Shown here piece after piece: positions 21,045 to 56,037 of a stretch of 64,000 bases of DNA. A model generated the notes under the pieces. The model had not been told where the DNA came from. It ran no database searches and saw nothing but the letters and a program-made list of their open reading frames with translations. How positions within the stretch are numbered: position 1 is the stretch's first letter; the number at the start of each line of letters is the position of its first letter. Both the position numbers and the translations under genes were made by a program. The DNA is taken from positions 434,001 through 498,000 of the forward strand of contig JAPDRO010000025.1 in assembly GCA_030247885.1 (NCBI GenBank). Direction: 5' to 3'. The DNA comes from Taxawa tesnikishii (nom. ined.) (Eukaryota > Ascomycota > Dothideomycetes > Dothideales).

Positions 21045-24000
21045 ATGAGTGGGAGGCTGCTCGCCTCAAGGCTATCTCCTTCTTACGACCCGCCGTCACC
21101 GCACCCGCCCGGACCACAGCATCAGCATCAGCATCAGCATCAGCGTCCAGCGCCGGCTCGCTGCACACGCTCCACCGTTCAGGTGGCCTTCTACCCTTAA
21201 GGCCATGGCCCACCCGTAATGCGACTCGCGCCCTGCACAATCTTCCGGCTGTCCGCCATGCCTCGTTCGCACGCCTGTTGCCTAGGCTGGCGCTCAAGCT
21301 TGCCCGCATTCCAGCTATGTTCGGGGCTGCGATGATAGGCGGATTAGCTTATTTGCAGTACCAGGCGACGCAAGCGGGAAACTATGCGCTGGACGTGCTC
21401 GGGAGGGTGAAGGATTCGGTGACGGGCGGCGCGACGGCATTGTTTGAGGGGGCGGGGGACATTTTCGATCAGACGAGGGTGGGATGGGAGAGGACGACTA
21501 AAGACATCGACTTGACGTGGTGGCAGCAGTTGTTCCAGAGAGGGCAGAGCGAAGGTGGTGGTGAAGGCGGGGATGGTGGAGAGGGGAACGGCGGACCGGC
21601 AGGGCCGCAGAAGAACGAGTCGAACGTCGGTGCTGCGGGAGCTGGTGCTGCGACTGCGGCTGCGTTTGCGCTGGACAAGGATGGTGAGGAAGACACGAGG
21701 ACCGAGGATGATGCCGCCAGGGATGATCAGATGATGCTGTTGACCAAAAAGATGATTGAGATCAGGAGTTTGCTGCAGACGGTTGGCCAGTCAGAGACGC
21801 TGACCTTGCCTTCAATCGTCGTTGTCGGCTCGCAGTCTTCGGGCAAGAGTTCTGTTCTGGAAGCCATTGTCGGGCATGAGTTCCTACCCAAGGGATCAAA
21901 CATGGTCACCCGTCGACCCATTGAGCTCACCTTGGTCAATACGCCCGGCGCGCATGCCGAGTATGGAGAATTCCCTGCTCTGGGTTTGGGCAGGATCACA
22001 GACTTCACACAGATCCAGAAGACACTCACAGACCTCAACCTTGCTGTTCCGGAGATCGACTGCGTTTCTGACGAGCCCATCCAACTCCGGATCTACTCCC
22101 CTAACGTTCCGGATCTCTCGTTGATCGACTTGCCAGGCTACATCCAGGTATCTGGTTATGACCAACCTACAGAGCTCAAGGAGCGCATCAACGCACTCTG
22201 CGAGAAGTACATCCAAGCCCCGAACGTGATCCTAGCCATCTCTGCCGCAGACGTAGACCTGGCTAACTCCACAGCACTGCGCGCAAGCCGCCGCGTAGAT
22301 CCCCGAGGCGAACGCACAATCGGCGTCATCACCAAGATGGACCTCGTCGATCCAGTGCGTGGCGCCGCCATGCTATCCGACCGCAACTACCCTCTCCGCC
22401 TCGGATATGTGGGCGTGGTATGCCGGGTGCCTCAACAATCGCACGCGCTTTTCTCGCGCGGATCCGCTAACATAACATCCCTGATCACGCGCAACGAAAC
22501 CGCATACTTTAGCTCTCACCCGGAGTACTTCGGCCCTGACAACACCAGCAACCGCGACGGGTCTGTCGTAGTTGGCACGCCCAACTTACGCAAGAAGCTG
22601 ATGCACGTCCTCGAGGCCACGATGTCGGCCTCGCTGGCCTCTACCAGCGAAGCCATCGCGCACGAGCTGGCCGAGGCAAGCTACGAGTTCAAAGTCCAGT
22701 ACAACGAGCGCCCGCTTTCCGCGGAGAGTTATCTGGCCGAGAGTCTGGATGCGTTCAAACACGACTTCAAATCCTTTGCCGATGCATTCGGACGTCCTCA
22801 GGTCCGCCAGATCCTCAAGCACGAACTGGATCAGCAGGTTCTCAACCTGCTTGCACAGCGTTACTGGAATAGACCCGTCGAGGATCTGAGTCCAGTCGAA
22901 GGGCAGGGGATTGTCGACTCCTTGGCCGAACTGTCCAAGGCGAATCCCGAGGATGCCCAACTGTGGGAACTGAAGTTAGATGCCAGTACGGCCAGTCTAA
23001 CGAAACTGGGTATTGGGAGATTGGCGACGACCGTGGTGGCGGAGAATGTGGCCGCGCACGTCGATCGTCTAGTCGCCGGATCCAGGTTCTCGGCACACCC
23101 GTTCGCGAAGACGATTATCCACCAAGCCGTCTCCGGTATCCTTAACGACCTCTCATACGACACTTCCGATGAGTTGGAGATTTGCGTCAAGCCGTACAAG
23201 TACAGGATCGATCTGGAGGATATTGAGTGGGCGAGGGGAAGGGACAATATTGCAAAGGTGCTAAGGGAAGAACTGGGGGACTGTGAGAATGCGATTAAGA
23301 CGGTGGAGTTGGAGATGGGTGGGAAAAAGAAGCTGAAGGATGTCATGAGCTTCATCGACCGCGTCAAGAAGGGCGAGGTCATTCTGGAGGGGAACGCAGG
23401 TGGTGGTGCGGGCGGGTTCAGTGCTGCGTTGTTGCAGAGAGGTATGTTGCCCCTTTGACATCTACAATATTGCAATCCCGCCCCTATGTTCACTTCTCAG
23501 CGCTAGTTGCGTTCTCGCACGCTAGCCGCTCATACCCCCATTACCATGACATGAGTACAACTCTGTCAACCGTCCGACTAACAAGGAAACAGGCCTCAGC
23601 GCGCTCTTCCTCCGCGACCGCGCCGACATCCTGAAAATGAGGTTGATGGCCGTCAACAGCAAACAATGCAAGCGCAAAGAAAACAAATACCTCTGCCCCG
23701 AAGTCTTCCTCGACGCCGTAGCCGACAAGCTCACCACTACCGCCGACCTCTTCCTCGATGCCGAGATGCTGGGCAAATTCTACTACCAGTTCCCCGCACC
23801 CTGGATAGCAAATTCAGGTCACTGACGCCGCAGCAGCTGGACCAGTTTGCGAGGGAGGATCCGAAGATCAGGCGCCATTTGGATGTGGTGAGGAGGAAGG
23901 AGTTGCTGGAGCATGTTATGAAGAAGTTGGAGGACTTGAGGGCGCTGGAGGCGAGGGAGAAGAGGGGGATTGAGAGAAGGGTTCGCCGGGAGGAGGTCAA

Positions 24001-24067
24001 GGAGAGGGGAAGAGGAGCTGGGGGTTGTTTTGATACAACCGCAAAGCTCTGCGTAGAGCAGAGTTAG
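21045..24067 (+). CDS. MGM1: Mitochondrial dynamin-like GTPase Mgm1/OPA1
   Basis: This inner-membrane GTPase drives mitochondrial inner-membrane fusion and cristae shape. Two exons (21045-23441 and 23593-24067) hold a presequence and then a hydrophobic anchor (IPAMFGAAMIGGLAYLQYQA). A Gly/Glu-rich linker follows, where processing gives long and short forms in the family. The GTPase domain has G1 GSQSSGKSS (about 21827), G3 DLPG and G4 TKMD. The stalk and C-terminal effector region come last. Two frame breaks need one restored base each. One lies between ATG 21045 (MSGRLLASRL) and the frame carrying the rest of the presequence. The other is at the C-run 23792-23795 (FYYQFP to RTLDSKF). With both restored the coding length is a multiple of three (957 residues), usual for the family. 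The start is the least certain part, because no in-frame ATG precedes the anchor. Confidence 0.9.
21118..21144. repeat. CAGCAT hexanucleotide run inside the Mgm1 presequence
   Basis: More than four copies of cagcat lie in the region encoding the mitochondrial presequence. In the frame that leads into the rest of Mgm1 they give an Ala-Ser repeat. In the frame of ATG 21045 they give His-Gln. The run lies close to the frame break of this gene. Confidence 0.7.
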
Positions 24068-24389
24068 AAGGCAATGACAACTCGCGCAGGTCGATGTATT
24101 TCGTATGGCGAGCGATTGAGCACGATACCAATCATTGAGCGGCGTGGTTTGGAAAACGGTTCGTTGGCTCTCCTCTCGGTTCTTCGAGCAACGGTATATT
24201 GGTTTTTCTGCAGTTTCCTCTGAGAGAACTTTTCACTTTCCAGCAGACATGTTTCGACTCCCCTGAATAGTCTTCGGCAAATCCCATAGATGTTAGCAAA
24301 TCTCGGCACGTTTTGATCTCATCCATCTCCAGCAGATCCTAGCCAATCCCACGCTCCGGCGTTCGGAAGAGCGTTCGGAAACACGACTC

Positions 24390-26277
24390 TCAGATCTTCG
24401 CCCAGTCAATCTCCTCGCCCAAGATTTCCCACCCAAGCAGCGTCCACAATTCTTCCCGAAACCAGTCATTCACCGATCTCTCCTCCGCCTTCTTCCCCTT
24501 GCCCTTGGTCTTCTTCCCTGTGCAGGTTGCATCTCCAAGTCTTGCGCGGAGTTCGACGTTGCAGAACCCGGGAAAGCAATATCAACACTTGGCAGAACGG
24601 GGAAGCGCAGACAATTCTTGCGATGGGGAGACGAAGGATCGGGGCCGAAGACATCGCGCACGAGAGTGCGTTGCAGGCGGGTGAGGGCAGCGTGGGACAG
24701 GAGCGCCTTGTCAGCCGTGACGGGAGGTTGGCCTGTCTTTTGTTTCGAAGATGTGTTGGTGGCCGTGCTCAGGTGGGAGGATGCGGCTGGCAGACACCGA
24801 CGCAACAGCGCGATGAGGTAGGGTGCTAGGAACTTTGCCGTCACGACCGAGACTTCTGCCTCGTGGGAGCCAGATTCAGCTTTTGGAAGCGGTGCGGAAT
24901 CCGTTCCCAACGTGGTGTTGCGGATCTCAGCCTCCAGGTCATCACCCCGCGTGTTGCCGAAAGTAAAGAGGTACAGGTTCTGGCCGAGCTTCTGCATCAA
25001 GAGGTAGAGATAACCTTCGAAGACGTGGTTGTGCGCAGAAACGACGGGGTCGAGCGATTCAACGATAGTAGAGAGCAAACGGGTCAAGAGTGCAAGGGTG
25101 GGATGGGATGGTGCGATGCTAACAGTGTCCTTTGAAAGACCAGTAGCGAACGGAGTGTTTGATCTGGCTGCAGATGACTTGGTTTTCTTCGGAAACCTCG
25201 TTGACTTCGTAGGGCTCGGTGTAGTATTCTGTCCCGAGAGGTCGTTGGATATGAGAAGGGACTTGGCGTCGGCTTTCGCTATCTCTGCCATTGTGGTGAC
25301 GACAGATTGTAGAAAGGAGGCGTAATGGTACACAACAGCTCCTTGATAGGTCTTTTCGCCGATACTAACGCCACTGAAGATTGTGCCAGCAGTGGTGGCA
25401 GTCTCGCGGCGAGCGACCACTTTTAGGCCATGAAGTAAGGACATGAAGGCACGTGTGATGGCCGTGACAACCGCTTCCTCTTTCTGAGTAACTGCATGCT
25501 TCAGATAAGCACTGGAGCTGCTGGCCCGGTGCTCGTTGATGGCAGGGTTAGCACACGGTTCCGGCGAAGCATCTTGGGGATGAAACGTTTCTTGCAGGAC
25601 CTTCGCCAACGCGGTGACTGTGTGAATGAGGTGGTATGCCACGGCATTGGGCTCAGGCCGGAAGGCTTTGTAGTAAAAGTTATGCAGCTGGTAGAGGCTA
25701 CGCATTGCTTGCAGGCCTGCGCCTTGTTTCAGTGGCCTTTCAGAGTATAGTTGCTTGCGTCGAAGTCGTACCTGATCGATTACCACCAAGCGCCTCAGAG
25801 TCTTGAGCCAGGCTGTTCGCAACCTCTTGTGCAGTAGGGTTAGCGGGGACGGCGATCTTCGCCTTCTTTTGCACGCTCTTGTCTAGCTCCGTGGCAGGCT
25901 TCTTCCGCTTCCTCGACCTCTCAGGCGTCACCGCCACAGCATTCTGGGCAGCCTTCAGCTGAGCGCGCAGAGCATCGTTCTCCTGCTTGAGTTCAAAGGC
26001 TTCGTTCTGTTGCTGCACAAGTACCTCACTGACTCGACCAAACTCAGAGCGCCAGAAGGCGGAGCGGTCCAGGTGGCGATGGCGAGAGCTCAGTGCGTCC
26101 TGTCTTCGGCCTTTCGCAATGTGTAGGCGGAGGTGCTGGATGTAATCTGTGGCGATGTCAGCGATACATGGCCGTAATGATGTGTGCAAATAGTGTGCCT
26201 TCAATTGACAGTTCAGGTGGTTTTGAGCGGACAATGGACAAAGCTAGAGCGATCTGTGGTTGAGTTGGGAGACACAT
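24390..26277 (-). CDS. Uncharacterised protein with coiled-coil N-terminal part
   Basis: I do not recognise this family, but it looks like a real gene of about 600 residues. The 5' exon ends at 25772. A 55-b intron (gtacga...gcgcag, 25717-25771) leads to the next exon starting at 25716 in matching phase. The N-terminal part has a helical segment (LVQQQNEAFELKQENDALRAQ cut short here) and a Lys/Arg-rich nuclear-signal-like stretch (RSRKRKKPATELDKSVQKKA). The long C-terminal part is helix-rich (MRSLYQLHNFYYKAF, ASFLQSVVTTMAEIAKAD). One base is probably missing at 24567-24572 (CCCGGG). With it restored the frame continues to a sensible end (NDWFREELWTLLGWEILGEE) and TGA at 24390. Without it the protein ends in an Arg-rich tail at 24470. 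The start is unresolved: ATG 26277 opens a short coding-like frame (MCLPTQPQIALAL) that needs an unassigned intron. Confidence 0.6.
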
Positions 26278-26371
26278 GATTGCTGATCTTGAGGAATTCG
26301 CTGTCAGAAGCGATAGAAAGAAGACAAACAGCTGCTGCGGCGAACAGGGACTACAATGGCAGTGAGGGCCA

Positions 26372-26402
26372 AGAAGAGAAGAGAAGAAAAGAGAAGAGAA
26401 GA
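26372..26402. repeat. GAAGA/AGAGAA purine repeat
   Basis: An imperfect purine-only run of agaagag-type units in the gap between the unknown gene and the mL38 gene. It is simple sequence in non-coding DNA. Confidence 0.6.
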
Positions 26403-26640
26403 ATAATGATACGCCTTTGTACTCGAAGGCGGAATTGCAAACCTTGTCTTACGTACGAGGAAAGCGCGGATGAACGCCCCTTCGCTCCGTCCTGGATAAA
26501 TCAGCGCTCCAAGCACTTCATTAGCGGATAAAACAACATAACTCGGAAGTCCTGATATAAAGTCGTGCAGAGGAATTAGACAGCTGGTATACAAGAATCG
26601 GATATAGTACATCTTCCAGCATACATACGTCCACCTACTC

Positions 26641-27999
26641 CTACCTGTACCTCTCACCAGGCAACTTCTTGTACGGCAGAGGCTCAATCTTCTTCCTCTT
26701 GAATTCAACATCATGACCCGGAACACCAGCCCTCTGCATGACACCCGCGGTGCCTTCATCGTGCTGACTCCTGAATAAGTTAACGCCGACAGGCTTCAGG
26801 GCATGACGGTCGACAAAGCTGCGCAGGATAAAGCCATGGCGCTGCGCCCTCTGCTTCAGGTCCGCCACGTTGATCTCCTGGCCGTCCTTCTGCTCCATGA
26901 CAAAGACTGACATGCGGTTGTAGGGTGCGCCCTTCTGCCCGTAAGCAGGCAGCCAGGGCAGCACGACCTGGGAATCGGCCGAGAGCAGGTGCAAAGGCAC
27001 GCTGGTCACGGTGGGCGAGACCTTGATATTGCAAGCAAGGAAGTGGCATCTGTAATCGAATCCGTCCTTCTCGACATTGGGGACATCAGGGTTGACCACC
27101 GCGACCGTGATGAGCCGCTCGCCCTTGTCGTAGACCTGAACGTCTAGACGAGCGGGGATCTCACTCACGCGCGAGTCGACGAAATCGCCTGGCTGAACGG
27201 CGCGTTTCCCGAAGGCAAGGTCCACGTTTACGACGGGGTCCAGAGATGGGAGCACGTCAGGGATCACGTTCATCTGAGTGACACGCTGGAGCAGGAGTTT
27301 GCGCTTGTACTGGCGCCATTGCTTGTCCGCCAGATACCGATAGATGGGCTTGTTCATGTCGCCTGCAAGTTATAGTTAGCCACAAGCGTTCCCTATCCCA
27401 TCCAGCTCCTCTTCTACTGGCCGCCAAATTCCGTGTACAGCATGGAATCGTCCAGTTGTAGTGCCGATTGACGCACCTTTGCCATCTTCAAACTTCTTCT
27501 TCACAACGGGATCGTTGATGTCCGCATAAATCTTGAGTTCCTCTAGATGCCGGCTCATGCTCGCAATCCTTTGACCTTTCTGCCATTCGCCCTGCGGCGC
27601 CACCTCCTGCACCTTCAACCTCTCCAATCTTGCCCGTTGCTGTTCGATTGCCTTGATCTTCTCTTCCCGATCCACCGCTAGCACTTTCCTGGCTTCCTGG
27701 AAACATTGGTAAGGCAACTGCTCGAAGGGGATGTTGGACGTCGACCGTAGTGCTGCGCGCCGTCTGCGAGACCCGACAGGAGTGACATGTTGCGTCCTGG
27801 TAAGTTTGCGCTCGAGTTTGGGCGTGTAGGCGAGGTTAGGATCGAGATAAGGGCTGGATGAAGTAGAGGTCTGTTGCTGTTCGACGGCCTCGTGCGGTGT
27901 CGGTGTCGAGGAGAAGGCGCGGACGGATGTGCTGTTGACCTGGCGTGTACATTGCGCATACCGCAGCAACGGCTTGGCACCTTGCTTAGTGCTCGCCAT
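26641..27999 (-). CDS. MRPL35: Mitochondrial large-subunit ribosomal protein mL38 (MRPL35)
   Basis: Two exons (27999-27477 and 27362-26641) give 414 residues. The start MASTKQGAKPLLRYAQ begins a basic, Ser/Thr-rich mitochondrial presequence. A charged linker helix follows (FEDGKGDMNKPIYRYL across the splice). The C-terminal half is a phosphatidylethanolamine-binding-like fold (DPVVNVDLAFG, VAVVNPDVPNVEKDGF, LPWLPAYGQKGAPYNRMSVF). This is the architecture of yeast MRPL35 (mL38 in the common nomenclature), a structural protein of the mitochondrial 54S subunit. The PEBP-like part is not expected to bind lipid. An upstream in-frame leader could extend the frame to 28101, but those codons are not Met-initiated in a good context and the presequence fits at 27999. 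The gene is transcribed away from uL4m, 223 b apart. Confidence 0.88.
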
Positions 28000-28222
28000 G
28001 CTTGCTAAAGACAAGAAAGATAGATGGAGATGGCAGCCGGGAAAAGCGTTCGTAGAGAGTCTGGATGTACGAGTATCTGGGAACATTTCGGATGAGAGCA
28101 CGGTGAACCAAACAGGCCAAAAGCGCAGCTTTGCAACTTTCGGCGAAGCAAGTTCACCTCCGCTTGAGCACCCATACTAATTCCACCGCAACCCTATCTG
28201 AACGATATTCTGGACGGTACAC
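28000..28222. promoter_or_regulatory. Shared divergent promoter of two mitoribosomal genes
   Basis: Only 223 b separate the start codons of mL38 (minus) and uL4m (plus). Any promoter for either gene must lie here or inside the neighbour. I see no motif I can name with confidence. Confidence 0.6.
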
Positions 28223-29244
28223 ATGGCTTCCAAGCGAGTGTGCGGCCCCGTCCGGGTATTCATCAATGGAACTGTCAACAGAAGCACCATCATACACGTA
28301 CGAGTGTCTCTTCATCTCCCATTCTTACCCTAGCTAATTCGCAACAGCAACATCAACCCTCCCTTACCCGCTCTCTGGCCACCGATTCCCTTCTCCCAAC
28401 CGACACAGCCGCACAATCCTACTCCGATGCCCATTTGAGCTCCACCGCAACCCAACCCATCCTGAACGACACCTTCGCACGTCCGCCTCCACCAGCGCCA
28501 GCACCAGCATCTCAGACACCCTTCCAGACGGCCGGGAACCCGTTCTTGACAAGAGCCACCTGCACACTGCACTCCTTCCCATCTCTAGAGCCCACCGGTA
28601 TTGTGTCGTACCCTGACTCGCACCTGCTGCTCCCCTTGCGACGCGACATCCTGCACCGGGCCGTCGTCTTCGAAGGCGACGCTACACGCCAGGGCACCGC
28701 ATCGACAAAATGGCGCGACGACGTGCACGGATCAGGGCGGAAGATCCGCCCTCAAAAAGGCACAGGATCCGCACGTCTGGGTGACAAGAAGAGTCCGATG
28801 TTGAAGGGAGGCGGTGTTGCGTTCGGACCCAAACCCAGAGACTTCAGCACAGGGCTGCCGAAGAAGATGTATGATTTGGCGTGGCGCACCGCTCTTTCGT
28901 ACCGGTACAGGCGGGGGCAATTAGTTGTGGTTGATGGAGAGGCGGAGGTCGAGGAGATGGTGAGGGGACCCGGGGCTGCGAGGTGGGTGAGGGAGATGCT
29001 GGGGTGGCATGGGTGGGGGAAGGCGGGAGGGAGGAGTTTGTTCGTTACGTTAGGGAGGAGGGAAAGGTTGTTTGAGGCGTTGGACAAAGAAGGAATGGGA
29101 AAGGAGGCTAGAGCGATCACTGTTGAGGACGTGGATGTGAAGGACTTGCTCGAAACAGGAAGAGTTGTTGTGGAGAAGGAGGCCTTGGATCTGCTGTTTA
29201 GGGATCATGTAAGTGACTTGAGGACGAACGTTAAGGCGGTATAA
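28223..29244 (+). CDS. YML6: Mitochondrial large-subunit ribosomal protein uL4m
   Basis: Exons 28223-28297 and 28348-29244 join in phase 0 to 323 residues. The N-terminus (MASKRVCGPVRVFINGTVNR) followed after the 50-b intron by SLTRSLATDSLL is a typical mitochondrial presequence. The core carries the uL4 signature: HRAVVFEGDATRQGTASTK, the conserved loop region GSGRKIRPQKGTGSARLGDK and GGGVAFGPKPRDFSTGLPKK. Bacterial L4 helps line the exit tunnel, and the mitochondrial protein is expected to do the same in the 54S subunit. The C-terminal part (RSLFVTLGRRERLFEALDKE) matches the usual length of fungal uL4m. The first exon is short, so gene callers may miss it and start inside exon 2. Confidence 0.88.
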
Positions 29245-35407: not shown

Positions 35408-38400
35408 ATGTCCTCTCCAGCTCCCTTCATGTCCGACGTGGACGTCTCACAGTCGGCTTCCAATCCATTTGTGGACATTCCGGCGCGTCCCATGCGAGGT
35501 ACGGCTTGTTGTATACTACGTCTAACCCGCCACACATCGAGGCTCACACACGTGCACAACAACAGTCAAGGTCCTCTACACGTTCGACAACGAAAACAAG
35601 ACCAATTGCCTCGCTCGCTTCCCAGAAGTTCTCTCTATACCTACCGTTCCAATAGACGACAACACGCAGATTGGAGTGATTGAACTTCGCCAATGTATAC
35701 GCGCCGTTGTTGCTGCAAGCCCGGAACTGGTTGCCAGGCTAAGCCAGGGGACTTTACTATCTACGCGTACGACTACTCCGAATACGAGGCCCCTCTTGTC
35801 GGTCAAGGCATGCTTTCCAGTATCCTTGCTGCTGCTTCTCCAACCCCGTCGGCACCCGCCCACCAGTCCAAGACAATGATCACTGGGCGCGTCTGCAAGA
35901 ACATACTGGGCCTGTTCTCCAATGGTGTGAGCGAGACTTTGGAAGTAAAGCTACGACTGGTACCGGTACCCAAGCCGGTACAAAATGATTATCTTAAGAG
36001 CATGGAAATGTATAGAAATCTTAGCCCTGCAATGTCTGCTGGTTTCGATCCCAACGCTTGGTCTGCTTCGATCCAGTCGACTCAGCTTTTCGGACTTGGG
36101 GCGCCGTTCGAGCATGCAACTTCACCCCCACAACGATGAGCATGATGGACTATGATCCCCAACAACTCCAACGGCAGATGTCGGTTTCGAGCCACCAGGA
36201 CCAAGGATCGTTTTCCATGCCAGGTCAAGGGCCCAATGCTCCAATCAGTCGTGTCGCAAGCCCAGCACAAAACGGAACCCCGCATTACTCGCGCCCCTCA
36301 TCCAGGGCTTCTGTCAGGAGCAACCACTCCCGCGCCCGGCAGGATTCTTACAGCACTGCAGCCATGAATGAGTCATTCCAGGAGGATGGTCCCGCCAGAA
36401 AGCGTGCAAAGATAACCCAGAGCGAATGGCGCGGCAAATCTTCGTTTGGCACCAACTCAGCCGATCTTCGGGTGACGGCTAGCACTGCTGCCTCGATACG
36501 TATCCACAAGCCTGTTGCCACTAGACCAGGCATAGCGAGCAGCTCATTGGAGCCCCCTCCGCGGGTGCCTACTCCTGTCCCTCAGAAGACCGGCCAGGCA
36601 ATGGGCAGATCGAGATCGCAAGCAGGCAACTTCCTTCGTCGTGAATCATCCCTAGCCAACGTTCAGTCTTACTCTTCACGATACGAGCCAGGTCAGCACA
36701 CGAACAACAACCCGGAAGTTGTCATGAGTTCTCCGGAAGAAGATCAGATGGACGAAACAACGCCTCCAGAGCTCCCCTCTTCCCCGCCTGCAATGCCGGC
36801 AACCTCTAGTCCAGGTCTGCCAACAATCAACAGCCATATGGATTCCGGTTACATGAGCGGATCACTTCTGGAGTGTCAGAATGACGATGAAGACAGGTCG
36901 CCAGACGCTGAGGACCTGGAGCTCATGGTTCAATACAGTGCAAGGTCACAAGTGCTACACCCAGATATTTCCTTCAACACCATAAACAACATCCATGCCG
37001 ATAAGACAATGAAGCACCGCACGCCCGGCCCACCGGAGAACTTGCCGACCAGGATGGACATGGCCGGAGCCCACAAGGACAAAAATGGTTCCAATCAAGC
37101 TGAGTTATCTAGACAAAAAGCGACGTCTGCCGTCACCAGACGCGGCTCTCTTGCCTTGCCGCAAAAGCCATCCGTAAGTCAGACAACAGCACAGAGTCAG
37201 TCAACATCGCAGGACCAGCAGACGTCCGGCAGCTTCCACAAGCCGACTCTGAACAAATCTTCTTCTACTGCCACGGCCAGGTCCGAAGCTGCTTCCCCGG
37301 CACCCAGTGAGGGGCCGGAAGCAGGTACGCAACGTAGTGGTTCTGGTGCAAAGAGGAGGAAGTACGTCGAGAGTCAGCTCAAGCAGGCCATCGAGTCGGG
37401 AGAGATGCCTACATACTGTGCGCACTGCGGCGCCATCGAGACACCTACTTGGCGAAACATCTTTGTCAAGACCATGGAGGGTAACCCACAGGATCATGTC
37501 ATCCGTGAAGTCGAGGGAATCACGCTCGCTGTTGAGTACATTGACACCGACCCAGAGACCAACATGGTCACGAAATTCCGGATCATCAAATCTAGTAAAA
37601 AGGCGAGGAACCTTGTCGAAACCGAGGGCTTCGATATGCTGTTTGTTTGCAATCCCTGCGGATTATGGTTCAACAAATACAAGACTATGCGTCCGCCGGA
37701 GAAGTGGAACAAGCAGTCGAAGCCTAGAAAGTGGAAGAGAAACAACACAGGTACGGGTCTTTCGGAACCCCAATCAGACATCTACACCGACCAGCCCGAT
37801 CACCTTGACCAGCCGTCGCTCGATACCGATAGTGCACAAGCTCAGGATTGCAACGGGGGTCACAACAAGACGCCGATGAGCACACTGAGGCAGCACCGGC
37901 TCGCACCGACCGCCCACGAGCGACTAGCATGCAGCCTGAGAAGCGGCCGACTGACACGCAGAACCGGTGGACCGGAGCCGATCTCGATGCTGCCCTGCAT
38001 CGGGCAATTCAGTCCAGCCCAGCTCGGTTCCTGGGGACGCAGGAGAGCCCGATTGAGCTCGACACCGATCTCACGCCTAGACCAACTCGTCGCATACTCT
38101 TCCCCTCACCACGCAAAGAAGGCGAGGTCAGGACCCTTGATGACTCCGCTTTGCCAACCTTGAAAGAAGCACTAAACAAAGGGAACGCCGGTGCAGTGCA
38201 CTGCACCTCCACCTTCAACGACGAGGACAATCTTGACAAGGAGAATCTCCCTCCACCAGTCGACGCCGATGACGATCTCGCCCACCTCTTCGAAGGGTCG
38301 CCTAACGGCCTCCTCTTCAAAACCCCTGCTAAAGTCACGCCGACAAAACGCACGCCCCGCTCGCAGCAGAACCAATTCGACGACCTTCTCAAAACCCCCA

Positions 38401-39778: not shown

Positions 39779-41952
39779 TCACGCCTCTAATCTCCTCAAA
39801 GCCTCTTTCCGTCCCAGTACCGCCAACGTAACCCCGGAACTCGGGCCCGGCATCCCAAACGCCAATTTCTCACGCATGTACGCATGGATCGCGCTATGCC
39901 AAGCCTTCTCCCACCCCTCGCGCTGCTTCTGGGGATCATCATCAACCCGCCAGCTTGGCTCAGGTGACGCCAAAGCAGCCTTTGTGGCCATACTCATCGT
40001 GTGACCTTTGAATTGGTCGGCGATGGAGGCCAGAAGTGCGAGTGAGACTTTGTTGGCGTCCTCGAGGGTTTGGGTGTTAGGACTGGAAGGTGACTTCAGG
40101 ACCTGATTCTTCCCGGGCTCGTTCCAAAACTTCATTTCGTCCCGGATCGCAGGAAGCATAATCTCGGACATCCGTTGCACTAGAGTTGCCCGGGGGATGG
40201 GATAGGTCGAGGTGCCGAAAGTCTCGCGAGGCGTGATAGGAGAAGACGGAGTGGTGGAGAAGAAATAGCTGTTGCGCTTGATGTATGAGAGAGGGTTTTC
40301 GTAGTTGGACGGGTCGGCGGACAGGATGGCCGTGACATGGGTTTCGAGACTGCGGTTGCCGAGGACGGTATTCCTGCTCGTGGTTAACATGGGGCATGAG
40401 CTGATTGTCGATGAGTACTCACAATTGGTTGAGATCACAGGTCTTCCTCGCTGTATCGGATATCAGACAGACCAGTTCCGACACATCAGCCGGCAGCGAA
40501 TCTAGCTTGTCAATGTGGTCGTCTTTACCGATTTTGGCAATTCTCTTGGCGGCGTGGTTTCTCTGTAGAAACCAGAGCTTGTCCAGCGTAACCATCGTGT
40601 TTCCTTTCGTAAACTTCAAATCGAACTAGATTGCATTAGCAGCGACCGGCTGACGGGTAAGAACGACACTCACCGCATTGACTAGTTGTTCAAGTGACAT
40701 AACATCATCCCTGCCGGGATTTCGCCAGCCAAGCAAGGCCAGAAAATTCGTTAATGCTTCCGGGAGAATGCCATGCTTCTCCCGCAGGGCCCTGACGTCC
40801 GTATCGAAGTTCCGCTTGGAGAGTTTGTTTTGCTCCTCGTCGGTGAGCAGCCCTACATGGGCAAATTGGGGAGGAGTCCATTTGAAGGCGTCGTATAATG
40901 CTACGTGAAGAGGAGTTGATGACATCCACTCAGTGCCACGGACAACGTGTGTGATCTTCATGTAGTGGTCATCAACCACGTTCGCTAGGTGGTAAGTTGG
41001 GGTACCATCACCCTTTAACAATATGGCACCATCGATGGAGGCGAGCTGTGGAAGTTTCCTCTTGACGCTCTTGTCTCCCAGTGATATCTTTCCGTAAACG
41101 AGATCGGTCCATTTGGGCGCAAACGCGGGTTTGAGGAAGCGAACGGCGAACCGGCCGCCCCGTGTGCACGCTCATCGGACTGCTCCTTGGGAATACTGGC
41201 GCAATCCTGTTGGCACCCTCCTACATTGACCGCTATCTGCGAGGGATCAACCTCGACAGCGGTGGGCGGTTTTGTCGTGCAGAAGCAACGGTAGGCCGTT
41301 CCACTCTCGAGAAGTTTCTGTGCGTGTTCCTGGTATAGCGGCGTTCGCTCGGACTGTAGAACATCAGGGATGATTGTGGTCTATCGAGATAGAGTGCCAT
41401 ACCTGCTTGTACGGTGAGTAAGGGCCGCCAACTTCAGGGCCTGGAACACAGTTAGAACCTAAAGTCCAGTTGGGTGAACTCTACAAACCTTCATCCCACT
41501 GGATACCGGCCCATCTGAGGTCATCGCAGAGTCGCTCTTCGGCATCAGGTACCAACCTTTTCTTCGTACGTTAGCACCACCCTGTCCTCAAATCTTTGGA
41601 GACTCACCTGATCGGTATCCTCAATCCGCAGAAGGAACCGACCACCCGTCTTCCTGGCAAGGAGATAGTTGAACAAAGCAGTACGCAAAGACCCTAAATG
41701 AAGATATCCGGTAGGTGACGGGGCAAACCTCGTACGTGCTGGCTCAGATGGTACGAGTTGGCGAGCAACATTATCCTTTGCACACCTCGCTCGCGTGTTG
41801 CAGATGCCTCGCGAAGACTGCCATGATATGCGTCTATAATGGGAGACGGCGAAGGTTTGTAGACTTAATGGTGACTTGGGTGTAGACGGCGTCGCCGGCT
41901 GGACTGCGCATCGTCGGAGTACGCCTGATCCAAACGGCGTCCCTCTCGGCAT
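39779..41952 (-). CDS. MSE1: Mitochondrial glutamyl-tRNA synthetase
   Basis: Six exons (41952-41608, 41561-41489, 41440-41403, 41353-40674, 40625-40423, 40373-39779) join to 644 residues. The enzyme charges mitochondrial tRNA(Glu), and in many systems also tRNA(Gln). The Met at 41952 starts a basic presequence of about 65 residues. The class I signature follows: [20 protein letters not shown] (the HIGH-type motif is HLGS). Then come [28 protein letters not shown] and the KMSKS-type motif KLSKRN. The C-terminal helical anticodon-binding part is present ([20 protein letters not shown]). One base is missing at the C-run 41158-41161 ([12 protein letters not shown] needs it). Restoring it makes all six exons add to a multiple of three. 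The open frame continues upstream of 41952 but has no other ATG. Confidence 0.93.
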
Positions 41953-46456: not shown

Positions 46457-48155
46457 ATGTCGAGCAACGCTGGTATGTGGCTGGCCCCTGTAAAGATGTT
46501 GCCGTAGCTCACTGCTCTGAAGACCTCCCACACTTTCCTTTCGCTCGGGAGAATGGTTATGAGCCTTCACCGGTGAACGCGCGGCTGCGCCATGACGCTC
46601 CTATTTCCAAGACCAAGCTCTTCGATGGAAGCGAAGCCTGGATGGTTATGAGGCACAAAGATATATGCACCGCCTTGGACAGCGACAAGCTCTCAGCAGT
46701 ACGTTGTCGCCGCCGCTCAACTGACCCGGGCTTGCTGACACATGTCAGGACCGTCGGGTCGATGGTTACCCGGAAATCCATCCTGGTGGAAGTAAAGCAA
46801 AGGAGTCGAATCCAACATTTGTCAACCTCGACGATCCGGAACATGCTAAGCAAAGGTGACTAGGCACCTGCGGCTGTGTCTCTATCATGCTAATACAGTA
46901 CCCTGCTCTACAGGGCGATGCTGCAATCCAGGTTTGATCCGGAAGCAGTGGAGAAGATGCGTCCCATGATGCAGGAAACGACCAACGAGATCCTCGACGA
47001 ACTTGTAAAGAAGGGAGGCAAGGACAAGCCGGTAGACTTGATAGAGGAGTTTGCCACGCCATTGCCGACTCAGGTAGGCACCGTGTCCGGATGTACGCCG
47101 TGTTTCAAGCAAAACTGACCCGAACCAAGATAATATACAAGATGCTCGGAGTACCCGAAAAGGATGTCGGAGAGCTATCGACAGATAGTGACGTCCGCAC
47201 CGGCACCAGTCGTGATGCTGCCGAATCAGCCAACAAGTGAGCAGATGTTTCGATGCTTCTCCCAAGCAAGTCTGATGTACTGTTAGGCATCTGCAGGAAT
47301 ACATGAGCAAGCTTGTAGACCAAAGAATAGAGAAGCCAGAAGACGATCTCATCAGCAAACTCGTCGTCGAGCAAGTGAGTTGATCGTTCATTCTACCACG
47401 GCTACTTCTGACATCCGCATGTAGTACAAACCTGGCAATCTCAAAAGGACGATATCACTACCCTCGCGTTCTTGGTGCTGACGGCTGGTAATGCCGCCCT
47501 AATCAACTCGATCGGTCTGGTACGTACTGCCCGCTATGTTCTCCTTTACGCTAGCCAACAGGAATTTCCCCTAGGGCGTGCTTACTCTCCTGCAACATCC
47601 CGATCAGCTCGAGGAGCTCAAGAGAGACCCCAATCTCGCACCGGCTGTGGTCAACGAAGTTTTGCGATTCCACACTGCGTCCGCGCTGAACAGCCGGCGT
47701 GTCGCAAAGGAAGACATGACCATCGGGGGACAGGTAAGAAGAATTGTCCCGCGCTTATGGAGAGTCGGGTCGTGCTGACCTGTCTTTGCAGCACATCAAA
47801 AAGCACGAAGGAGTCATCTGCTCGGTGCAATCAGGCGACAGGGACGAGGAGAAGGCGCCAAATCCAGACGAGTTCGACATTCACCGCAAGGTTCCATACG
47901 AAGACATCCTCGGCTTCGGTCACGGCCCGCATCGCTGTCAGGGTGAGCATCTCTCGCGTGCGGAGCTCGAGATCGCTTTCGGTAAGTCGAACGAATCATG
48001 TCTCCCTGATAATTAGCACAAGCTGATCTTCCATCTCTGCAGGCACGTTGTTTCAGCGGGTGCCAAACCTGAAGCTCGCCGTCAAAGAGTCGGAGCTGGA
48101 GTGGACGCCGGCTACTCAGAATGTTGGTGTGAAGGAGCTTCCGGTTTACTTCTGA
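46457..48155 (+). CDS. Cytochrome P450 of the CYP55 (P450nor) family
   Basis: Ten exons join to exactly 403 residues, the length of Fusarium P450nor, so that numbering applies directly. CYP55 enzymes are soluble P450s that take electrons straight from NAD(P)H and reduce NO to N2O in fungal denitrification. Family features are FPFARENGYEP at the start, TFVNLDDPEHAKQR, HTASAL with Ser286, and the heme loop FGHGPHRCQGEHLSRAELE with Cys352. The I-helix reads AGNAAL, so residue 243 is Ala where P450nor has Thr. Residue 393 is Asn (QNVGV) where P450nor has Asp. The B' loop (YPEIHPGGSK) also differs from the nucleotide-binding loop of P450nor. One A is missing from the run 47443-47446. With it restored, all exon phases agree. 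Whether it still reduces NO is open. There is no membrane anchor or signal. Confidence 0.9.
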
Positions 48156-48262: not shown

Positions 48263-48345
48263 GAACAAGGACGTGAACCGAACTGAACCGAATTGAACCG
48301 AGCTAAACCTAGCTGAACCGAACCGAACCGAACTGGACCGAACTC
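48263..48345. repeat. Imperfect (CTGAACCGAA)-type repeat
   Basis: Eight or so variants of a 5-10 b unit related to gaaccgaact follow each other just downstream of the CYP55 stop codon. The degenerate copies suggest an old minisatellite. Confidence 0.7.
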
Positions 48346-48598
48346 CGCTTCGGCTCCGGACCTGCCCATGAGGATGATAGATCGCTAGCGGCTTAGCATT
48401 ATTCGCTTAACCGATAAGATAACATTGATCAATGCATCGCCGAGTCCACTTCGTCGTGAGTAGAAGAGCGGCGCCTCCACATCTACTGCAGTCATATGAG
48501 ACGACGAATGGCTTATACGCCAACTGCTTATATGCTGCAGACCGCCTCTGCTAGACACGTGTCAGACAAGCACAAGGCATCCCAATGCATGTCACACA

Positions 48599-48644
48599 TC
48601 TCTCTCCCTCTCTCCCTCTCTCTCTCTCTCTCGCGCGCGCGCAG
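48599..48644. repeat. TC microsatellite running into CG repeat
   Basis: A pyrimidine run of tc and tccc units passes directly into an alternating cg stretch of about ten bases. Alternating purine-pyrimidine next to polypyrimidine is prone to slippage. Confidence 0.8.
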
Positions 48645-48941
48645 TTTGCTCCGAAGCCGGCGGTCGTCAGCCCTACCGGGAAGCCGACATGATGTACAAG
48701 TATCGTGTATGTAGGTTCCAGCTCCCATTCTGCATCCACGATAATTCCTCACCCTCACCCTCACCCTCACAGTCGGACTCTCTTACCGACACCGTCGCAC
48801 CCTCTCACTGAAATCCCCTCGTTAGACCTGTCCTTCTCCTTGTGATATCATACTGTGCTTCTACCTGTGCGCGTCGCGAACCACCTCCGCGCCTGCTGTC
48901 CTCGGCCTATCCTGTACTCGACCACAGCTCCTTGACAAGCC

Positions 48942-50064
48942 ATGTCTACCACTATTGGGTACGGCCACAAGCCCGTCTCCTACTCTCCCAGCGCCTGATT
49001 GCCATTGCAGCTCGTTCATTGCTGGCGGCATAGCCGCATGCGGCGCCGTCACCGTCACCCATAGCTTCGAAACCATCAAGATTCGGTACGGCGCATCGTC
49101 AAGACTCGACATTATGATCCCTCTAAACCCACCGGCAGACTACAGTTACAGGGAGAGCTCCAATCCGCCAAAGATGCGCCGCGCTTGTACAAGGGCGTGC
49201 TGCACGGCATGTCCGTCGTATACAAGAACGAAGGCATGAAGGGTCTCCTGCGCGGATTGAACTGTGCCTACATCTACCAGATGACCCTCAACGGCTGCCG
49301 CCTCGGTTTCTACGAACCCATCCGCACCCACCTCAACTCCGCCCTCCTCACGCGTTCCCTCTCGCACGCCGACGATCCCGCCTCGAAATCACTCCAGAAC
49401 CTGCCCATAAACATCTTCGCCGGCGCCACCTCCGGAATCATGGGCGCGGCGGCCGGATCTCCCTTCTTCCTCATCAAGACTCGCCTGCAGTCCTACTCCC
49501 CTTCCTGCCCGTCGGCACGCAGCACCACTACCGCAACGCCTGGGACGGCATGTCGCAAATCTACCGCAACGAGGGCATAAAGGGACTATACCGCGGCGTG
49601 CTGCCCGCCATGGTGCGCACCGGCTTCGGCTCGAGCGTGCAACTCCCCACCTATTTCTTCGCAAAGAGGAGGTTGGTGCGGCATTTCGACATGAGCGAGG
49701 GGCCCGCGCTGCACCTGCTCAGCTCGACGGCCAGCGGTTTCGTGGTGTGCTGTGTCATGCACCCGCCCGATACGGTCATGAGCCGCATGTACAACCAGAC
49801 GGGGAACTTGTACAACGGCGCGTTCGATTGCTTGTTCAGGACGATCAAGACGGAGGGTGTTTTGGCCGTGTACAAGGGCTTCTTCGCGCATTTGGCGAGG
49901 ATATTGCCGCATACGGTGTGTTTTGTCGGATGTGTCGAGGACTGGGCTTGGAAGCTGACGATGGAATGCAGATCTTGACGCTGTCGCTTGCTGAGCAGAC
50001 CAACAAACTGATGCGGAAGTTCGAGGACAGACTCCTGTCCAGAGAACTCAAGGAGAAGATCTGA
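48942..50064 (+). CDS. OAC1: Mitochondrial carrier, oxaloacetate transporter type (Oac1-like)
   Basis: Four exons (48942-48958, 49011-49085, 49139-49915, 49972-50064) give 320 residues. It is a six-helix inner-membrane carrier with three repeats. Their signatures are HSFETIKIRLQLQGE, SPFFLIKTRLQSYS and HPPDTVMSRMYNQTG. The second and third closely follow the Oac1 pattern, and Oac1 exchanges oxaloacetate, sulfate and related dicarboxylates. Each half-repeat also has its helix-2 motif (LYKGVLHGMSVVYKNEGMKG cut here, IYRNEGIKGLYRGVLPAM, LFRTIKTEGVLAVYKGFFAH). A single C is missing at the run 49498-49501, between LQSYSP and the frame reading NAWDGMSQIYRNEG. With it restored the coding length is a multiple of three. 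Substrate assignment is by motif only. The SLC25A34/35 group is the nearest alternative. Confidence 0.88.
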
Positions 50065-50537
50065 GCGCAGAGGTCGGGCAACGACCAACAACAACCCAGT
50101 ACTGTACCGCGACTCCTTGCTAAACTGTGTCCGGAGCCGAGCGTGAGCCCCCTGTTCCACATATATGGGACTTTCTACAGACCAAACTTGCGTGTTGAGG
50201 CGTATCGAGTCTGGCTTGTGGCGCGCTGGAAGCGTACTGTGCGGAATGCTAGAGAAGCAGAGAGGGATGTCCAACGTGGGGAGAGGGGCCACTCTTTGAC
50301 TAGGACGTGGAGCGAAAGTGTCACTGACACCCTTTGCAAGGCTGCGGGATCGTGCGGCGCGAGAACGAGCACTCGCACGAGCGGATTTGGACTTGGATTT
50401 ACATATACAAGAAATCTGAACCCGATCTTTGTTTACGCTGAGCATTGTCCTTTTTCCATACAAGGAGCCGAAAAGAGAAGAAGGGTGTGGGTATCATCAA
50501 TGGCAGGGGGGGCAATAACGAAAGAGCAGCGCAGGGT
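50065..50537. other. Convergent 3' region, no gene seen
   Basis: 474 b between the stop codons of the carrier gene and the ADF-H protein gene, which face each other. Presumed 3' UTRs. Confidence 0.5.
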
Positions 50538-53500
50538 TTATGTGCCAGGGGTAGTCGTTGTGACGGCCGACCAGGCTTGTTGATAGGTGCGAAGCGCTGT
50601 GGGCGCGTTTAGCAATCTTGCGCTTTGTGGTCAAAGGGGAGGAAAGGATGCAACAGGGACACAAACAACAGGAAACTCACTTTTTAAGAGATGCGTCTGC
50701 ATGGCACCATCTTCACAGGCGCACTGCAGCGACGAGCCGTCCGGCAGATCGAGCACAACACCTGTGTTTATCCCGTCAGCACGCCGCCTCCCTCTTTCCT
50801 CCTTTTTTCTTCCTCCAATCGGAACTCACTATTGGGCAACTCCTGCCTCTCAATCTCCGGCACATAAACCTCTTTGAACTCCCTCAAGCTGAACCTCTGC
50901 ACAACACTCTTCTTGTAGTCGTTCCCTTTGGCAGGTGAGAAGACCAGATGTCCGTCTGCGTCAATGTCGAGGCAGCGTCGTCGCCAAAGCTGCCATGTTG
51001 TCAGTACGCGCGCGTCCCGCAGTCGAGTTCCGCCGTAGCTGTCCACCAGCGTCTGACGCACCAGGTTGTCGGGAAATTGAACGTTGAGGTCGCCGATGTG
51101 GACCGCTGGCAACGTTATTGATGTAGAGGCGTTGGGAGGTTGTGTTTGCGATGTCACGCTGCTGATCGAGGGCATGTACGCAGCTGCGTTGGGTGGCATC
51201 ACTGAGCGTGGAGAGTGCGGAGGGGAGGGGTCCCTTTTCTTAGGGCTGGCGATGGCGCTGATCCGCCGGAGGAAGCGGCTTGTACGGCTGCTTGTGCTTT
51301 CGTCGGAGAGGATGGAGGAGGGCGAGAGGGCGCGCGAGGCTGATGCGGGGTTCTTGTTCTCTTTGTTGCGTCCGAACGACTTGCGCCAGCTGGTGCGGTG
51401 GCTGTCCATAGAGGCCCGGCTTTGGGTGGGCGACATGGCATCAGACACAGGCGAAAGCACGTCGTCTGTGAGGGTAGACCCAGCATTGGACTTTGTTCGC
51501 AGCGCGGCTGAGTCTGTGATCAGAGGGGCAAGTGGCTGGATGTTAGATTGCGACGCTGCTCCCCGTTTGTGGTTGATAATCAAGGGTGATTGTTGTAACT
51601 CTAATGGCGCCGCTTCGCCAGTAGAAGGATGTCCAGTTTGAGTGGAAGGGCGTCTGACGATTCGTGCCGTGACTGACACTGAATCACGTTTGCTGGTCGG
51701 ATCTTGTTGGACCGTGTATACTGTTTGGTTCTCGGACGGCGCCGGGGTAGGTCGCGTCGCTTGAACCGGCCACGGCGCAACTTTGGTAAAGCTGGCCATA
51801 GGCCTGCCGGTTTTCGGCGCCGACGGCTGGGGTTGCAAATCAGACGTGTCCCGAACAGAGGCCTTGCGCATGGCAAAGATGCCTGAGGGGATTGATTCCG
51901 TGGTAGCAACAGGAGGAGGACTGGTTTCCCTGACCGATTTTTCCGCGAGCGCTCGTATCCGGTCCGAGATCTTGGAAGAGACCTGTCCTTTGCGTGCAAT
52001 AGCCATTGGATCCGCCTTCTCCGAGGCTGGCGTCCGGCCTGATGAACTTGACCGGGATCTGCTCTGCGATGAAAGAGCACCAGGTGACAAACGATCAGTC
52101 GCCGCTGCGAGCTTTTCCATCAGCGTCAATGGACTCGAGTTCGTCCTTGGGATCATGGGGTCGACAGAGGCTCCAGACTTGGCCGACTTGATGGAATAGA
52201 CAGAGTTGGAGCTGGGCCTTCTCGGGAAGAAAGGAGTTGCGGGCGATTTCGACACAGATATGAATTTCGCCTCCTGTACGGTTGCACTCTGCAGCTCTTC
52301 CATGAGCTCATCGTCCGAGGAGAAGATGTCATCCGCATCGGTGCGCTCAGTGTTAATAGATAATGGCTCTATAAATCCGCGGCGCTTCTTTCGAAGGTCT
52401 GCGCTTTTCTGTGACTGGCGAATGGTCATCCCTGGGAATGTTTCTGATTCCTGGAGATCTGGAGGGAGTGCTTGGGGTTCCGTGGCAGTTACGGGTGGCT
52501 GCTGGTCAACCGCGCGGTCCTGGCTGGAGCACCTCGGCCGCGAACCGTCACCCATGACGATCGTAGGCAAAGGAGACATAGGCATGTTCGCTTGCTCCGG
52601 GATTGTAGGCTCGACTAATTTGCCCAGAGTTGGACTGTCAACGAATGCCAGGTCCCCAGGCTTTGAGAACTCGTTCCCGGATGTGCCCGTCACTATACTT
52701 AGCCTTGCATCCTCAATCTGGTCATGCGCGCTGTCGTTCATGACGTCCTCCGTCTCTCTGGTCTCTTTGTGAGCGGCAAGTTGCATTAGGGGAACTGCCG
52801 GCTCTTCAGGTTCATCTAGTTTGGCAGGAAGATCTGGCGAAGCGTGAGCCGATTTCGGTGATTGATGGTCTGATATCTGAATCCCTGAGTCCACTTTGTT
52901 CGGCAATGCGTTGGACTCCGGAACGTTTGGCAATGTGTCGGGTTCCCATTGTTCTTGATTCTGCAGATTTGTCTTAGCACCCGATCGCGGAAGTTTAGGC
53001 GATCCCAAGACCTCCTGAGACGGTGATGGAGTCGGATGCTGCTCAGTTGCTTGTGCCCGTTTCAGGTGCCTCCTGCGCATTTCCGCGGCTTTCATCAGTC
53101 GGAGCTTCTCAGGGGTCATTGCCGATTTCGATGTCACGTTTGATCCGCTCGTCTTTGCACTCCGCATAGAACGTGAACTACCTCTAGAGCTGGGACGTGC
53201 TGCTTCGAGATCCACAGCAACAGGTATGGGCGGTGGTGGAGGAAGTGGCGAAAATTCAAACAAACTCGGACTGGCGGCTGGGGCAGGTTCCTCTGTGTTA
53301 ATTGGGGTTGCATCAGCCTGTTTGGGCTTTATGTGCACTCCGGCAGGCAGGGCTGAGGTGGGCCTTCCGAATGATCCTGCACTTGACAGCGCTGGACGTT
53401 CAGATACGGCAATTGGACGAGGGCCGTGCTTGATCTTGGGCTTGAGTAGGTATTTCTCGAAATCGTAATAATCCGGAAGTTCCCCCTGCTTGGCCGGGTA

Positions 53501-54422
53501 GTATCTATGGGTTTTACTGCGGCCTCGTCACCGCATGGACCGCTTGCAGCGCTCGGACCGCTCTTGATAGACTCCGTATCTGGCGCGGAAGCCTCCGACG
53601 GCGCATACTCGGTGACAGAAGGAGGACTCAAACTGGTAATCGATTGCTGTCCGTGTTCTTCTCGTACCAAGAACTGCGACAGTGATGACTTCTGAGGCGA
53701 CGTGGAAAGCTTTTCGCTCGCTTCAAGAAGAGATGGAGCGGCATTCGCAAGTGCGACCAGCCGCTTGGAGCGCGAGGCAGGAATTCGTCGACCGGAAAGA
53801 GAGGAAACAGACGATGCCTCCCGCATCAGCGGTGGCGGTGCCCCTCCCTCTTCGGCATCCTCACTGATCTCGTTCAGCCTGGTGGTTGACACTGAAGGGA
53901 AGCTGTCGCGGTATGCAGAGGAAACGATGCGGCCAAGGATGTATCGCTCAGATTCTCCGCGGATGTGATCTCTAGCAGCATCTCATATGGCGTAAGCTTC
54001 TCGAGTACATCCTGAAAGTGTACGGATGTGCGGGCTGTGTGAGCTGTCAGAACAACGCCAATACAACCAAGAATCCTGACATGCCTTGCAACAGTCGAGA
54101 AGTTCCCTCGGGTATGTATTTTATGAGCACCTTCCTCCTTCTATACATCATCATTCCGTATACGGGAGAGAGCTCATCGTATTGCAGCATAGACGCTCTC
54201 GCTTCCGTAACCCCCGCCTTGCCTTGAGCCAGCACCTCGACAGTATCTCGCGACACATATTTGAGAAGGAACCTGCGCCAAAAGTCTCAGCTCCGCACGC
54301 ACTCTCCCAAGCAGGGCAGAGCTCGCCTGCCGTGTTCCAACGACCTACCATCCTCCTGCTTCAGCGAAAGCGGTGTTGTACGCTTCCTGAACTTCTGGAG
54401 CATCCAAGCCGTTCAGCGACAT
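50538..54422 (-). CDS. Large ADF-H and PH-like domain protein (fungal actin-linked family)
   Basis: Five exons (54422-54349, 54272-54085, 54034-50830, 50761-50681, 50616-50538) give 1,209 residues. The N-terminus is an actin-depolymerising-factor homology domain (EAGGW then FLLKYVSRDTVEVLAQGKAG, YDELSPVYGMMMYRRRKVLI, LLQARTSVHFQDVLEKLTPY). About 850 residues of Ser/Pro-rich disordered sequence follow, with a Lys/Arg helix (SAMTPEKLRLMKAAEMRRRH). At the end is a PH-like domain (TWQLWRRRCLDIDADGHLVF, LREFKEVYVPEIERQELPNS, VVLDLPDGSSLQCACEDGAM). This domain order is known from uncharacterised fungal proteins, and a role in actin organisation is inferred. Three missing bases (G-run 53897-53899, T-run 53512-53515, T-run 50681-50685) break the frame. 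With them the exons fit exactly. Intron 2 has a GC donor. Start Met 54422 gives MSLNGLDAPEVQEAYNTAFA. Confidence 0.82.
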
Positions 54423-55452
54423 TGTTTTGCGCGCCGCGCCTTATCGCGTCGCGACAATGGTGGTCTCGGGTGTTTGAAGGGAAGGCCTGTCTCCCGTTTG
54501 CGAAATCAGGGGCCGTTACACGGCGGGGTATCCAAGATTACAGATACAGGTAGATAGGTGTGGTTGCGCGCTGCCGTCGGGTGTTAGGGTCGCGACTCGT
54601 CTCGTCATAGTTTCATGATTGCTCTCGGGCTGCTTGGATCAAGATGTAGGAAGGGCGATGAAGCGCATGTTTAGCAGACAAAAAGGAGTGTTTTGATCTC
54701 TAGCTGCAGGGCGCAGGCCAGCAAGGAGCAGGAAGCGGGCCTAATGCAACAAAGCCCTCGGAAGCCCGTTCACGGCGGAGAAGCCGATAGAGTTGTGGCC
54801 AATGGGGAAGCCCATCACCGGTCTACTCCCGGCAGAAACAAAACCTAATCTACGATGACAATGTGGCCTGCTCTTTCGGTATACGCACGGCTCCTCCTCC
54901 TCTTCTTCTTGCGCAACTGTTGGCGCCACCCCTCCAGAGGCATCTTTGCCGTCGCAGTCACCGCTTCCCACTGTCTGCGGCAGCTCCTGTTAGTGATCCT
55001 GTTCGCTAGACATGTACACATTGTTCGCAGGCAAACCCCCGAACAAACCGCGGCCCCGTCGGAGTTCAAATAAGATATTGAACTGTCGTGCTCCCACGTG
55101 ATACAGGACCACTGGACCGAGGTGGTCCACAGCGAGTCCAATCAGCGGTCAAGCACCTCTACACGAGACCCATCGATGACTCGACCATCTTCGCAACTAG
55201 GCATCTCTCCATCAGCATCGCGTCGGAGATTTTGGTGTCCTGCGCAAGCCAGCCGAACCCCTGGTGGTTGTTGACGAGGGTTTGCTCGGCCCGCGCTGCG
55301 AACTGCTTGTGCGTATGCGTATGCGAACTGAGTCAGGGCAACTCTAAGCGCGTCGGAGCAGCCCACCTGAAGTGGGATGCCTCGAACGATGAACGCAAAC
55401 ACATTAACATCCAAAACAGTTGCCTGTATCATCGGTCAAACTGCTAGAGAGC
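54423..55452. other. Divergent intergenic region, no gene seen
   Basis: About 1 kb between the ADF-H gene and the OHCU decarboxylase gene. Open frames on the plus strand here read across non-coding DNA and have no domains. Both promoters are expected in this stretch. Confidence 0.5.
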
Positions 55453-56037
55453 ATGTCTGCCACTACCCTTCCCCCAATCTCTGATCTCCCTACCCTCTCT
55501 ACCACAGAGCGAGCACACGTCCTCGACCTTTTATTCGAACCCAGTACTTCCCTGCACACGCTCTCCGTGTCGCTGCTGCACGACCAAACATTCGCATCAT
55601 ACGATGATCTGATCGCAGCCATCGGTATCCAACTGACGGATCTTGCCGAGTCCAGTTCAACCAGTGACACCGAATGGCTACTTAGTATCTTGACGGCGCA
55701 CCCAAGGCTCGGTGCAAAAAGGTCGAAAGTGCACAGAGCCAGGCGGAGCAGGCCCAGTTGAACACGGGAGGTGCTGAGGAGGCGCAGGAGTTGCAAAGAT
55801 TGAACGACGAGTACGAAAAGAAGCATGGGCTGATATATGTTGTGTTTGTCGATGGGAGGAGCAGACCGGTGATCATGGAGGACATGAAGAAGAGGATTGC
55901 CCAAGGCACTGTCGAGGGGAGAGGAAGGCTGCTATCAAGGTCAGTCGGTCACAAAGGTGAAGCATTGGCGGTGGCTCACACCACAACAGGCAATGTGCGA
56001 GATAGCTGCCGATCGTGCGCGGAAGCTGCAGCAGTAG
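55453..56037 (+). CDS. OHCU decarboxylase (urate catabolism)
   Basis: Two exons (55453-55939, 55990-56037) encode 178 residues. The enzyme decarboxylates 2-oxo-4-hydroxy-4-carboxy-5-ureidoimidazoline to S-allantoin, the last step of uricase-dependent urate breakdown. Family features are a mostly helical fold and the active-site motif HPRLG (in LLSILTAHPRLGAKKVE), followed by SQAEQAQLN. The substrate-pocket segment is LNDEYEKKHGLIYVVFVDGR, and the C-terminal helix ERKAAIKAMCEIAADRARKL. Two single bases are missing, at the A-run 55716-55720 and the G-run 55916-55919. Restoring both gives a family-length protein with correct intron phase. Location is probably peroxisomal or cytosolic. The last residues (KLQQ) are not a PTS1 signal. 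No other purine gene is nearby. Confidence 0.88.

Follow-up and report, generated by a model that had tools for sequence, protein, structure and literature searches.

Frame breaks biased towards missing bases point to a genome-wide consensus error in a fungal assembly

The window, by which we mean the whole stretch of DNA analysed here (64,000 nucleotides), covers positions 434001-498000 of contig C18 (526,701 bp) in the assembly of Taxawa tesnikishii, which comprises 29.37 Mb in 34 contigs. The end of this contig (L014, C18:518001-526701) terminates in (TTAGGG)n telomere repeats preceded by an AT-rich stretch, which puts the window at a distance of about 29 kb from the end of a chromosome. 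Among the terminal (TTAGGG)n units one is a base too short. Introns in the window are short and of the GT-AG type, with a CTRAC-like branch point, which, taken with the genes present, would fit a filamentous ascomycete. An intact multi-intron gene at 15414-16807 encodes a predicted multi-span membrane protein, which by eye we take to resemble the fungal rhodopsin-like integral membrane proteins. A class-II glutamine amidotransferase gene (PF13230) follows at 18984-20057, with a possible break at 19988 at some settings of the gene model described below.

Between about 21 and 56 kb the initial annotation had listed 14 losses of a single base, distributed over eight conserved genes, and had attributed them to assembly error. 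We translated all three frames at every one of these sites and inspected them. The sites, with the evidence found for each break, are:

21045..21198, plus strand: Mgm1 gene, break near the start; coding model, missing-base event at 21052
23792..23798, plus strand: Mgm1 (mitochondrial dynamin-like GTPase), C-terminal break; homology to 6ql4 and coding model
24567..24572, minus strand: break in the gene at 24.4 kb; coding model, missing-base event at 24572
35741..35750, plus strand: 'GATA factor' gene, break in the Ams2/SPT21 N-terminal domain; PF25823
36125..36129, plus strand: 'GATA factor' gene, second break; coding model at loose settings (36117)
37855..37859, plus strand: 'GATA factor' gene, third break; coding model, missing-base event at 37874 at 9/9 settings
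41158..41272, minus strand: glutamyl-tRNA synthetase (GluRS) gene; PF00749 in frames off by one
47425..47446, plus strand: CYP55 (P450nor)-like gene; weak P450nor match and model event at 47430 at the loosest penalty
49498..49501, plus strand: mitochondrial carrier gene; PF00153 (Mito_carr) in both frames
50681..50685, minus strand: gene called ADF-H in the initial annotation, claimed break near the 3' end; no independent evidence
53503..53515, minus strand: 'ADF-H' gene, break; coding model, missing-base event at 53503 at some settings, no Pfam match
53897..53944, minus strand: 'ADF-H' gene, break; coding model at the loosest penalty only (53944)
55710..55737, plus strand: OHCU decarboxylase, first break; PF09349
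55916..55919, plus strand: OHCU decarboxylase, second break; coding model event at 55918 at some settings

For three of the 14 sites tight homology, leaving no room for an intron, confirms both the break and its direction. At the C-terminus of Mgm1 the chain 6ql4 is matched over residues 787-855 in the upstream frame and over residues 854-908 in the downstream frame, the DNA being contiguous, and the coding model places an event at 23822 at most settings. An extra-base call of the model at 24009 is likely false, since the frame continues to a stop codon about where Mgm1 should end. The 'GATA factor' gene is predicted from its profile match to carry an Ams2/SPT21 N-terminal domain (PF25823, Ams2-SPT21_N), which is split between two frames, with positions 4-68 before the break (E 1.3e-25) and positions 67-136 after it (E 3.4e-27). 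In the OHCU decarboxylase gene positions 2-73 of PF09349 lie in one frame (E 6.8e-11) and positions 68-133 in the next (E 5.7e-19), again on contiguous DNA. The residues past the second break of this gene presumably fit the OHCU decarboxylase family as well.

The homology is looser for another three sites. In the GluRS gene, by eye of the mitochondrial type, the PF00749 profile (tRNA-synt_1c) is matched over positions 74-101 (E 8e-5, below the cut-off) and then over positions 140-298 (E 2.4e-36); about 110 bp of DNA stand against 38 profile positions in the gap, and the frame offset is in the missing-base direction, whereas in the event that the coding model places at 41160 the shift goes the other way. 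The PF00153 matches of the carrier gene do not place the break, and the model has an event at 49497 at every setting for which events were listed. The downstream frame of the CYP55-like gene gives a weak match (E 0.26) to residues 223-249 of P450nor, and a PDB search with the short exon preceding the break returned no match; in the upstream frame there is, by eye, what we take to be a KPGN-like motif.

The remaining eight sites rest on the coding signal or on inspection by eye. The main 807-aa frame of Mgm1 matches 6ql4 from query residue 65 onward and the likely start codon sits, by eye, in a frame other than the main frame, while no homology spans the break at 21045..21198. No Pfam match was found on either side of the break in the gene at 24.4 kb, nor did the pieces of the 'ADF-H' gene that were searched give an ADF-H or any other Pfam match. 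The break claimed at 50681-50685 found support neither from Pfam nor from the coding model at any setting. The runs of identical bases had been given correctly for the 13 exact sites except 24567-24572, which consists of two runs of three. Among the genes that had been called clean, the frame of the GT90 glycosyltransferase is indeed open over 749 aa and the DAK kinase and the epoxide-hydrolase-like gene are uninterrupted; at loose settings the model flags positions 28358, 31008 and 31508 in a zone that had been called clean.

The gene model is of the hidden Markov type; it allows for exons, for introns composed of donor, branch point and acceptor, and for one-base shifts, which cost the same in both directions. 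It was trained on the window together with 20 control stretches (198.7 kb; contigs C1, C7, C18, C23, C29 and C30), so that the calls were made on sequence that had also served for training. It replaced a first model with introns lacking a branch point, which had reported only two breaks in the window, the others being hidden in apparent introns. In a simulation with 250 deletions and 250 insertions placed at random in clean exons, the model detected 206 of the former and 192 of the latter, so that detection is nearly symmetric. At the working setting the model made 46 missing-base calls against 7 extra-base calls (p 4e-8; 6 and 1 in the window, 40 and 6 in the controls), and missing bases outnumbered extra bases at every setting tried. 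Five of the 14 sites were recovered as missing-base events at the working setting and 12 at the loosest, the latter also adding 13 further calls in the window (7 missing, 6 extra).

Missing-base calls were made in 18 of the 20 control stretches, and calls of any kind in 19. Relative to the coding DNA there were 6 missing-base calls in 30.5 kb in the window and 40 in 102.6 kb in the controls (2.0 and 3.9 per 10 kb; p 0.16). Pfam was searched with 27 control pieces, picked non-randomly by length and interest; of the 46 control calls, 13 missing-base and 1 extra-base call have such a piece on either side. Two of these breaks are tight and leave no room for an intron: the N-terminal domain of DNA ligase IV (L015, C18) is matched over positions 52-128 and then 129-174 across the break, and that of a GH92 glycosidase (L020, C7) over positions 11-139 and then 132-236. 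DNA ligase IV shows a second break between positions 1-52 and 52-128, the first half reaching only E 0.0073. Looser cases are a dynamin-like gene (L026, C29; positions 1-89, then 89-167, with 44 bp in between) and CorA (L024, C29; 3-179, then 189-284). At the other control breaks searched either no domain was common to both sides or an intron would fit; the latter also holds for the DNA polymerase A pieces in L009, which were not counted. Whole-genome searches with MFS (9 of 454 candidates scored) and protein-kinase profiles (128 of 189) gave too few adjacent matches within the same gene to estimate a rate. Of the kinase-domain pairs, which were judged by hand, two resemble missing-base breaks and most others leave space for an intron.

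These controls bear on whether the fault is local, a block of low coverage or bad polishing restricted to the interval from about 21 to 56 kb and bordered by clean DNA. Such a block would agree with the initial annotation, which listed no break beyond this interval, with the open frames of some genes, and with the few model calls downstream of the window on the same contig (one missing in L014, one extra in L012, none in L013). The six contigs of the controls, however, show the same or a higher break rate, including the part of C18 upstream of the window, where the model calls breaks in L009-L011 and L015-L017. The bad interval with clean neighbours implied earlier is not needed, and we regard a purely local fault as very improbable.

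The breaks are linked to homopolymer runs. A run of at least 4 lies within 20 bp of 27 of the 46 missing-base calls, where about 11 are expected; among coding positions in general the share is 23.7%. Within this distance the longest run has length 4 in 20 cases (9.1 expected) and length 5 in 7 cases (1.8 expected), while 19 of the 46 calls have no run of at least 4 within 20 bp.

We also analysed the run-length spectrum, of which the link between breaks and runs is independent. Over 262.7 kb the number of runs in coding DNA falls from length 5 to length 6 from 62 to 1 for A/T and from 75 to 0 for G/C, against a ratio of 0.17-0.21 per step from length 2 to 5; extrapolation from the shorter coding runs would give about 16 (A/T) and 17 (G/C) runs of at least 6. 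As comparator served 100 kb of E. coli K-12 in two stretches, a bacterium that was used for the shape of the run spectrum only. It has 237 A/T runs of length 5 and 76 longer ones, and 35 G/C runs of length 5 and 6 longer ones, which are small counts. The coding spectrum differs from that of E. coli (p 4e-6 for A/T, 0.0015 for G/C), whereas for intergenic runs of 6 and more no difference from E. coli was seen (p 0.31 for A/T, 0.35 for G/C). Within the same genome intergenic and coding runs of 6 and more do differ (p 1e-4 and 0.012). Much of the cliff may therefore be due to long runs being naturally avoided in genes. For defined flanks the whole genome contains 14604, 3577 and 289 instances of C-A(n)-C with n = 4, 5 and 6 (ratios 0.245 and 0.081) and 12324, 1694 and 111 instances of A-G(n)-A (ratios 0.137 and 0.066). 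With identical flanks the 100 kb of E. coli give 71, 25 and 2 for A and 30, 4 and 0 for G, small counts that are also steeper from 5 to 6. The run spectrum is thus compatible with a homopolymer error but is no proof of it. A strict cap at five bases as the full cause was rejected, because it would place most breaks at printed runs of 5, whereas more are found at printed runs of 4 (see above), and because 747 exact 6-base G/C runs persist genome-wide. A fair reading is that the loss rate climbs with run length and has no absolute cap.

The 5S rRNA genes look intact: among those scored (best 47 of 1720 candidates) 44 have a length of 120 bp and one of 119, where by our own estimate 2-3 losses are expected. 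These 47 places are scattered across many contigs and their scores vary, so that the genes are probably not fully homogenised. A duplicated segment of at least 4.7 kb on C2 (L031/L033 and L032/L034; ~88-93 kb and 540-545 kb) has 1 mismatch and no indels over 4.76 kb. It could be either a recent duplication or assembly redundancy, and does not discriminate as a test of the error reading. Several protein-kinase matches on C2 come in pairs as well. The 5S lengths, the run-free calls, the C2 duplication and the weak intergenic deficit are points against the error reading; none of them favours a particular biological cause.

The attribution to assembly error holds, with missing bases far exceeding extra bases, breaks clustering at homopolymers and a frequency in the controls at least as high as that in the window. 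The bias towards losses, this clustering and the spread over the genome together argue for a systematic sequencing error and not for decay or programmed frameshifting of eight genes. Very probably, in our judgement, the sequence is the consensus of a long-read (nanopore-type) assembly without adequate polishing by accurate reads, which loses single bases in short homopolymer runs. Such losses would break the frames; the platform is what we infer from the kind of error, and the organism's own genes are probably intact. As a very rough estimate of our own, such a loss would break the frame once in every 2-2.5 kb of coding DNA throughout the genome.

Two biological explanations have to be weighed against this consensus error. 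In the sequence as printed the reading frames really are broken, as they would be in pseudogenes that have decayed in the organism. Several of the affected genes are, however, of housekeeping type (GluRS, Mgm1, DNA ligase IV, the carrier), the domain matches carry on across the break wherever both sides were matched, and the breaks are nearly always the loss of one base, where decay is expected to give mixed insertions and deletions and a relaxed coding signal; real decay is exceedingly unlikely. Programmed -1 frameshifting or insertion editing of RNA throughout the genome would account for the fact that nearly all breaks need one and the same shift, often at short runs, which are places where slippage of the ribosome or the polymerase can occur. 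The shortage of long runs in intergenic DNA is not strong enough to rule this explanation out by itself. It would, however, be required in a large share of the genes, given that 18 of the 20 control stretches are affected, and has in our view next to no probability. We put the chance equally low that a few of the breaks, such as some of the run-free calls, are genuine features of the DNA that programmed frameshifting overcomes.

Breaks of the same direction and with the same link to runs are spread over six contigs. As the same breaks occur in other parts of the genome, they are almost certainly a sequencing artefact of a known kind and not biology, and one that is genome-wide and extends beyond the eight genes. 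Whoever uses this assembly for gene models, claims of gene loss or comparisons of proteins will meet falsely truncated genes in large number, also far beyond the interval reported initially. The direction of frame breaks, when checked against simulated breaks, can reveal such errors without reads.

Similar errors are known from nanopore sequencing. According to PMC5889714, early base-callers other than Scrappie limited homopolymers to 5 bp. The present assembly resembles their output in that coding runs longer than 5 are nearly absent and the losses cluster at runs, but differs in that many losses are found at printed runs of 4 and longer intergenic runs survive. The account of the nanopore-only assembly of Drechmeria coniospora (PMC7500977) describes errors mostly in homopolymers, fewer than one-sixth of 305 conserved genes being initially predicted at full length, and polishing in which additions of bases were more frequent than removals. 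Both cases are fungal long-read assemblies in which frame breaks at homopolymers run through many conserved genes (for our assembly the platform being that proposed above). In D. coniospora the polished sequence is described as having more runs that were too long than runs that were too short, whereas in the assembly studied here losses dominate.
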